A DNA stretch of 35,685 bases from positions 1 through 35,685 of the forward strand of contig CAMDKQ010000007.1 of NCBI GenBank assembly GCA_945901095.1, in the 5' to 3' direction. Within the stretch, counting starts at the first letter, position 1. Each line of letters opens with the position of its first letter. This document shows positions 24,635 through 26,552 of this stretch, in pieces. Made by a program: the position numbers and the translations under genes. The DNA is from Bifidobacterium breve (GTDB lineage: Bacteria > Actinomycetota > Actinomycetes > S36-B12). The notes under the pieces are model-generated. The model made no database searches, had not been told where the DNA came from, and worked only from the letters and a program-made list of their open reading frames with translations.

Positions 24635-26425
<1,791 letters not shown>

Positions 26426-26429
26426 CTAA

Positions 26430-26461
26430 GCCTGTGACCGGCAAAGGTGCCTGTGACCGGC
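26430..26461. repeat. Perfect 13-bp direct repeat in the leuA leader
   Basis: GCCTGTGACCGGC occurs at 26430-26442 and again at 26449-26461, a 19-bp period. In the leuA transcript each copy reads GCCGGTCACAGGC. Its GCCGGT is complementary to ACCGGC (26487-26492) in the loop of the preceding hairpin, which would allow a pseudoknot or kissing contact. Actinobacterial leuA leaders are known to contain a conserved pseudoknot, and this could be its local version. Confidence 0.65.
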
Positions 26462-26468
26462 GAACGAC

Positions 26469-26511
26469 AAAACCCGCGACGAGGAGGCCGGTGGTCTAGG
26501 CCTCGCCGCGG
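26469..26511 (-). terminator. leuA leader hairpin with short T-run (attenuator candidate)
   Basis: On the minus strand CCGCGGCGAGG (26511-26501) pairs with CCTCGTCGCGG (26484-26474), 11 bp with one G-T wobble, followed by G and TTTT (26472-26469). The 5' arm lies inside the leader peptide gene, directly after its Leu codons. A shorter alternative stem GAGGCC/GGCCTC is possible. The T-run is short, so termination may be partial. Confidence 0.55.
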
Positions 26512-26537
26512 CAGCGAAGGAGGAGGGCTCGCGTCAT
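26496..26537 (-). CDS. leuA leader peptide (MTRALLLRCRGEA)
   Basis: A 13-codon ORF on the minus strand, ATG to TAG, too short for the track. It contains three consecutive Leu codons (CTC CTC CTT). It ends within a strong hairpin, about 107 bp before the leuA start. TACAGT at 26547-26552 sits nine bases upstream, so the transcript would have almost no 5' UTR. Leu-rich leader peptides upstream of leuA are the expected sensors of leucyl-tRNA charging. Confidence 0.75.
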   Translation of the reverse strand: MTRALLLRCRGEA

Positions 26538-26546
26538 GATGCGGTG

Positions 26547-26552
26547 ACTGTA
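26547..26552 (-). promoter_or_regulatory. Predicted -10 box of the leuA leader transcript
   Basis: TACAGT on the minus strand fits TANNNT and places the transcript start two to three bases before the leader ATG. The -35 region is poor (GTGAAC with a short spacer). Confidence 0.4.

Follow-up and report, generated by a model that had tools for sequence, protein, structure and literature searches.

The leuA gene in the window, a 35,685-nucleotide stretch of Bifidobacterium breve DNA, is preceded by a leader that almost certainly belongs to the LEU element family (Seliverstov 2005). The element is of a known type and carries a duplication specific to its lineage. On balance, we favour a view of the LEU element as one member of a wider Actinomycetes class of attenuators, with pseudoknot leaders, that serve branched-chain amino acid genes. 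In such a class the P1 helix and pseudoknot would be kept, and the sensor codons re-specified for each target: Leu for leuA and leuC, Val/Ile/Leu for a new small protein and leuB-ilvE, and Val for a stand-alone LeuA domain. The ribosome would serve as the sensor, with the pseudoknot arm doubled in the window's genus. The mechanism of the LEU element has been a standing question since 2005, and the match between codons and target bears directly on it.

Organisation of the leuA leader

The original prediction described a Leu-triplet leader, an 11-bp hairpin and a loop, ACCGGC, complementary to the GCCGGT within both copies of an exact 13-bp repeat. All of these were found, on the minus strand (Table 1). 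One of the 11 bp of P1 is a G-U pair and the UAG stop codon of the leader ORF sits within the P1 loop. The end of the copy 1 arm is 67 nt from the leuA ATG. A UUUU sequence follows P1 in the window and is not conserved among relatives. Pattern matches elsewhere in the window, with two mismatches allowed, were at chance level and were discarded.

Scanning identified no σ70 consensus promoter pair. A TGCTAC or TGGTAC motif, similar to TACAGT, is located ~10 nt ahead of the leader start in most family members. Given this motif, the TACAGT sequence of the window and the published leaderless leader of S. lividans, transcription would start ~0–3 nt ahead of the leader ATG, so that the transcript would be near-leaderless. 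No intrinsic terminator was seen in a scan of the minus strand. Thus, the Rho-independent terminator with a U-run overlapping the leader, by which classical terminator attenuation is recognised, is absent. This agrees with the contrast drawn previously between the leuA leader and a simple terminator design.

Table 1. Features of the leuA leader and their positions in the window.
Feature	Coordinates	Strand	Basis
Putative −10 element TACAGT (TGCTACAGT)	26547..26552	−	Read from sequence
Leader ORF MTRALLLRCRGEA*, ATG at 26537, stop TAG 26498..26496	26496..26537	−	Sequence; frame and Leu run kept in relatives
Leu codons CUC CUC CUU (n=3); first six bases complement the leuA Shine-Dalgarno	26517..26525	−	
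P1 5' arm CCGCGGCGAGG	26501..26511	−	Covariation
P1 loop segment ACCGGC, 5' arm of pseudoknot helix	26487..26492	−	
P1 3' arm CCTCGTCGCGG / CCUCGUCGCGG	26474..26484	−	Covariation
13-bp repeat GCCGGTCACAGGC (RNA GCCGGUCACAGGC), no mismatch, spacing 19	26461..26449 and 26442..26430	−	
Unit 1 of 19-nt tandem duplication (TTCGCCGGTCACAGGCACC)	26446..26464	−	
GCCGGU copy 1, conserved pseudoknot 3' arm, 12 nt past P1	26456..26461	−	In essentially every homologue
Unit 2 of 19-nt tandem duplication (TTTGCCGGTCACAGGCTTA)	26427..26445	−	
GCCGGU copy 2, additional arm for the pseudoknot, 31 nt past P1	26437..26442	−	Three species of genus only
GACGAG, could pair with CUCGUC of P1 3' arm in alternative fold	26406..26411	−	MFE; weak comparative support
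GAGGAG, leuA Shine-Dalgarno; base stem with CUCCUC of Leu codons	26395..26400	−	
leuA, 2-isopropylmalate synthase, 584 aa	24635..26389	−	Pfam HMGL-like, IPMS_D2, LeuA_dimer; NCBIfam

Assignment to the LEU element family

Comparison with the actinobacterial leuA pseudoknot element, as originally proposed, matched the window leader to that element. The leader precedes leuA on the coding strand, has a short ORF with a Leu run and a conserved pseudoknot, can pair its Leu codons with the leuA Shine-Dalgarno in a base stem, has no obvious terminator, and is homologous to a published member. Neither the window nor any of ten relatives matched an Rfam 15 family at gathering score. A permissive search gave a lone sub-threshold match near the element, which was unrelated. 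Our covariance model, R1, was built from 15 family members. With it, the element was found in all 80 good genomes from the order, in 250 of 268 from the class and in 41 of 302 in a phylum-wide sample. Three matches (L173–L175) were judged false or partial and were left out. Another match (L170) encodes MRFGLLLLSCRGEGL, identical to the published S. lividans LeuL1 peptide. Hence, the R1 model is tied to a named published member. A covariance model of the LEU element would close a gap in Rfam.

P1 and pseudoknot helices co-vary

Sequence comparison supports an H-type pseudoknot, formed by the loop ACCGGC and the first GCCGGU, that is conserved and co-varies across the class. Among 80 distinct order-level sequences, 98.7% of cells in the P1 helix were paired and 5 pairs had changed on both sides. 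The equivalent values for the loop:GCCGGU helix were 95.5% and 2 pairs. Together, P1 and the loop:copy 1 helix had 97.6% of cells paired and 7 both-side changes; 0 of 500 shuffles scored as high. Conservation with compensatory changes argues that the two helices are not due to chance.

In the whole class (117 distinct elements) the loop scored 17.44 with its own arm and 15.48 with permuted partners (sd 0.18), and in the 43 elements with a loop lacking CCGGC the scores were 16.62 and 13.14 (sd 0.38); these permutation tests, and those of covariation, are inflated by the relatedness of the sequences. Some elements have full replacements of loop and arm (GGACCGACC/GGUCGGUCC, UCAGCCG/CGGCUGA and GAUCGGCC/GGCCGAUC) that would be hard to explain other than by pseudoknot pairing. 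The third pseudoknot loop is ~9–14 nt long in most elements; for the window it is 12 nt with copy 1 and 31 nt with copy 2. Two elements of genus g8, in the window's family (L152 and L153), have an insertion of ~18 nt in the P1 loop (CCTAGGGGTCCCGCATAGGGGCCTGAGCCGGCCC) that could form a small hairpin.

The second pseudoknot arm is part of a tandem duplication

A switch, or a duplicated pseudoknot arm, had been put forward to account for the repeat. The second of these was borne out: the extra GCCGGU is the product of a 19-nt tandem duplication, and the loop pairs with the first GCCGGU in the class-wide co-varying pseudoknot. The two-copy form is confined to three species of the genus, namely that of the window and two congeners (G001 and G003). 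The fourth species of the genus to have an element (G004) and the closest species of the sister genus have a single copy, and both leaders are shorter by about one unit. Overall, 3 of 109 leuA elements have the second GCCGGU arm. A scan for the two-arm pattern in all GTDB r220 contigs, among which the window's own genome is possibly not included, recovered only G001 and G003 (L035 and L036). No other relative checked, whether in the 109 leuA elements or in GTDB r220, has copy 2, which speaks against two competing repeats acting as a switch. The original prediction was to be refuted by homologues that keep the leader and have lost the repeat together with the loop complementarity. Only the first of these losses was seen; the repeat is absent from homologues but the complementarity is kept. 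Six-base recurrences in two further leuA elements (L068 and L091) involve other arm sequences (GGCCGA and GCCGTC), not the ACCGGC/GCCGGU type, and are probably incidental.

Among the three species, unit 2 varies in 5 of its 19 columns but in 0 of the 6 arm columns (chance ~0.11 by hand calculation). All six copies of the arm hexamer are identical. With six bases in three close species, invariance of the copy 2 arm would be a weak sign of selection. The two 19-nt units of the window have the derived bases CACAGGC in common, which suggests homogenisation of the tandem repeat.

We consider it highly improbable that the two copies of GCCGGU make up a genuine two-position switch, with the loop bound to either arm and a different output in each state. 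Certainly, both arms complement the loop exactly, both are invariant in the two-copy species, and third loops of 12 and 31 nt make either pairing sterically possible. The modelled energies for the rest of the leader are also close, being −44.6 kcal/mol with arm 1 engaged and −43.4 kcal/mol with arm 2 engaged, values that leave out the pseudoknot helix (~−10 by duplex) and loop costs. However, a single copy suffices elsewhere, a congener and the sister genus included; copy 2 is not significantly conserved; and the derived bases common to the copies look like repeat homogenisation. Neutral slippage, with no regulatory effect, has a slightly better than even chance of being correct. The tandem duplication is restricted to close species and has signs of concerted change, although the identity of the hexamer in every copy, and the location of the repeat inside a regulatory leader, count against slippage. 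The 19-nt tandem duplication is recent, and copy 2 most likely serves as a spare arm, neutral or with a slight tuning effect, and not as a new switch. The doubled arm is a small natural variant for testing the role of the pseudoknot.

Two local hairpins were rejected. A GGCA-CCUU-UGCC hairpin between the repeats occurs in the window only and is absent from both congeners. An AGCC/GGCU hairpin sequestering the arm is present in relatives and broken in the window.

Leader codons follow the target gene

Second R1 matches were fetched from several families and the downstream gene was classed by tblastn. Four leader codons at homologous positions were compared. At least three were Leu codons in 135 of 138 leuA elements and 8 of 8 leuC elements (143 of 146 jointly), and none of the 146 had at least two Val/Ile codons. 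Conversely, for elements upstream of leuB, behind which ilvE often lies, or of a stand-alone LeuA_dimer, at least three Leu codons were found in 0 of 37 and at least two Val/Ile codons in 36 of 37; the groups are drawn from few lineages, and independent codon changes are few, perhaps two. Examples of the codons before leuB or LeuA_dimer are FVLI, VVIL, VRIL and LLVV. P1 is identical in type in the Val/Ile elements. The leuB-type pseudoknot co-varies on its own (17.97 versus 14.21 permuted, sd 0.39, 31 elements). For LeuA_dimer elements the loop:arm score was 21.25 versus 20.17 permuted (n=6), and for leuC elements there was no permutation excess (13.06 versus 12.97, n=8); in both groups the test is weak, the sequences being alike or few. 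No description of the Val/Ile variants was found in the literature searched.

The leuC loci with Leu codons (L074, L157, L158, L080, L090, L199, L204 and L210) are mostly from family f15. At the LeuA_dimer loci (L161/L221, L171/L222, L280, L283, L285 and L288) the codons are Leu-Val-Val, and the protein encoded downstream is a stand-alone LeuA allosteric domain (PF08502) of ~130–145 aa. The leuB group (L208/L218, L202/L220, L167/L223 and L247–L301) comes from families f14, f97 and f11, and has 100–330 nt between the element and the next ORF. A small conserved ORF of ~27–60 aa was found between the element and leuB at 28 of 31 loci (L251, L258, L263, L264, L270, L276, L202 and others) by a motif-guided search in which a few calls are doubtful. 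Examples of its sequence are MYDMYPEWGP...LDLRDNGGERPDDN and ...QEAMDRRDNGGETGH. Four examples had no Pfam or NCBIfam match.

In passages of PMC1262725, the authors who described the LEU element put forward a protein after setting aside both classical attenuation and a riboswitch. Leader codons that follow the target favour ribosome-mediated sensing over this proposal, and we regard such sensing as quite likely. A protein binding the LEU fold, with the leader peptide being secondary, is improbable. It was proposed, in the same passages, from phylogenetic profiles and a codon-mutation result, and the primary sequence of the core is strongly conserved. However, the codons of paralogous elements that retain P1 and the pseudoknot match the target, a match that a protein site would not need. 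The match of codon to target in these paralogous elements is a natural experiment on the LEU mechanism. It predicts that swapping the codons would change the amino acid sensed.

Possible masking of the leuA Shine-Dalgarno and a proposed model for control

In the window, the leuA Shine-Dalgarno, GAGGAG, is perfectly complementary to CUCCUC, the first six bases of the Leu codons. The probability of the Shine-Dalgarno being unpaired was 0.03 in the unconstrained fold and ~0.49 with the Leu codons masked as by a stalled ribosome. Across elements, the mean duplex energy of Leu codons was −9.18 kcal/mol with the element's own Shine-Dalgarno, −8.68 kcal/mol with those of other elements and −5.69 kcal/mol with shuffled versions; the difference between own and other is ~4 standard deviations, on related sequences. 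Because any Shine-Dalgarno is complementary to CUC/CUU codons for Leu, these values give the base stem modest support. In 104 of 118 elements, CUU is the third Leu codon.

The unconstrained minimum free energy fold of the window leader is an alternative hairpin arrangement with the same base stem. It lacks P1 (−58.7 versus −54.4 kcal/mol, with an energy model that does not include the pseudoknot); in 68 of 109 relatives, the equivalent fold retains P1. The P1 3' arm pairs with the sequence ahead of leuA only slightly better than permuted controls do (−11.84 versus −10.99, sd 0.18). A protector hairpin of the 1:2 type (CUUCGC/GCGAGG) was dropped by eye; the fourth codon varies (CGC, AGC or GGC), breaking the pairing.

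As a whole, these features are probably best explained by a leader-peptide and pseudoknot attenuator acting on leuA. We lean towards leuA translation as the output, with translational attenuation favoured because the Leu codons of the window complement the leuA Shine-Dalgarno. Both this output, translation and not transcription, and the following order of states are what we infer. The transcript would begin at or just ahead of the leader ATG. With no ribosome on the leader, CUCCUC would pair with GAGGAG and leuA would be poorly translated. Under a shortage of leucyl-tRNA, a ribosome would stall on CUC CUC CUU and cover the run, freeing the Shine-Dalgarno. In the stalled state P1 and the pseudoknot, between loop ACCGGC and GCCGGU copy 1, could still form downstream. 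With ample leucyl-tRNA, the ribosome would reach the UAG in the P1 loop and release, allowing the base stem to re-form.

Ribosome-mediated control might instead act on transcription, through Rho-dependent or pausing-based attenuation, and not on initiation of leuA translation. We consider this rather unlikely. The minus strand has no intrinsic terminator, as is also true of the S. lividans leuA leader (PMC8079986), and the Shine-Dalgarno of the window is matched exactly by the Leu codons. Conversely, C. glutamicum leuL is reported to be a transcriptional attenuator (PMC8709942), and the next ORF of leuB-type elements is too far away for simple Shine-Dalgarno masking. The Val/Ile variants before leuB mostly have no anti-Shine-Dalgarno run. 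Hence, given also their distance from the next ORF, masking by codons cannot be the output for every member. In S. coelicolor, mutations of the leuA Leu codons had effects inconsistent with classical attenuation (Craster 1999, cited in a passage of PMC1262725), which count against a simple attenuation model.

Comparison with known systems

The ilvB-II motif of Corynebacterium (PMC10272879) resembles the window leader in that a structured leader holds a uORF whose codons include ones for branched-chain amino acids. It differs in its two stem-loops and intrinsic terminator, the absence of a pseudoknot, and its target. The C. glutamicum leuL leader (MTSRANLLLLRRGGSQRS) is, by description, alike in placing a Leu-run leader peptide ahead of leuA and attenuating expression; there, attenuation of leuA is reported as transcriptional (PMC8709942). 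The S. lividans leader leuL1 is reported to be transcribed leaderless and has no terminator (PMC8079986). It shares with the window a Leu-rich leader ahead of leuA, but the sequence has diverged (39 bits to the R1 model) and the second arm is absent.

The closest counterpart is the LEU element itself. As described in passages of PMC1262725, it has the same Leu-run leader ORF, P1 and pseudoknot, and the same position upstream of leuA. It also has the base stem between Leu codons and Shine-Dalgarno, and no obvious terminator. The alternative fold described there, sharing that stem, may have its counterpart in the unconstrained fold of the window leader. Placement of this architecture ahead of leuC, ahead of leuB(-ilvE) with Val/Ile/Leu codons, or ahead of a stand-alone LeuA_dimer with Val codons is absent from those passages. 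The window differs from the element described there in its second pseudoknot arm, derived from the 19-nt tandem duplication.
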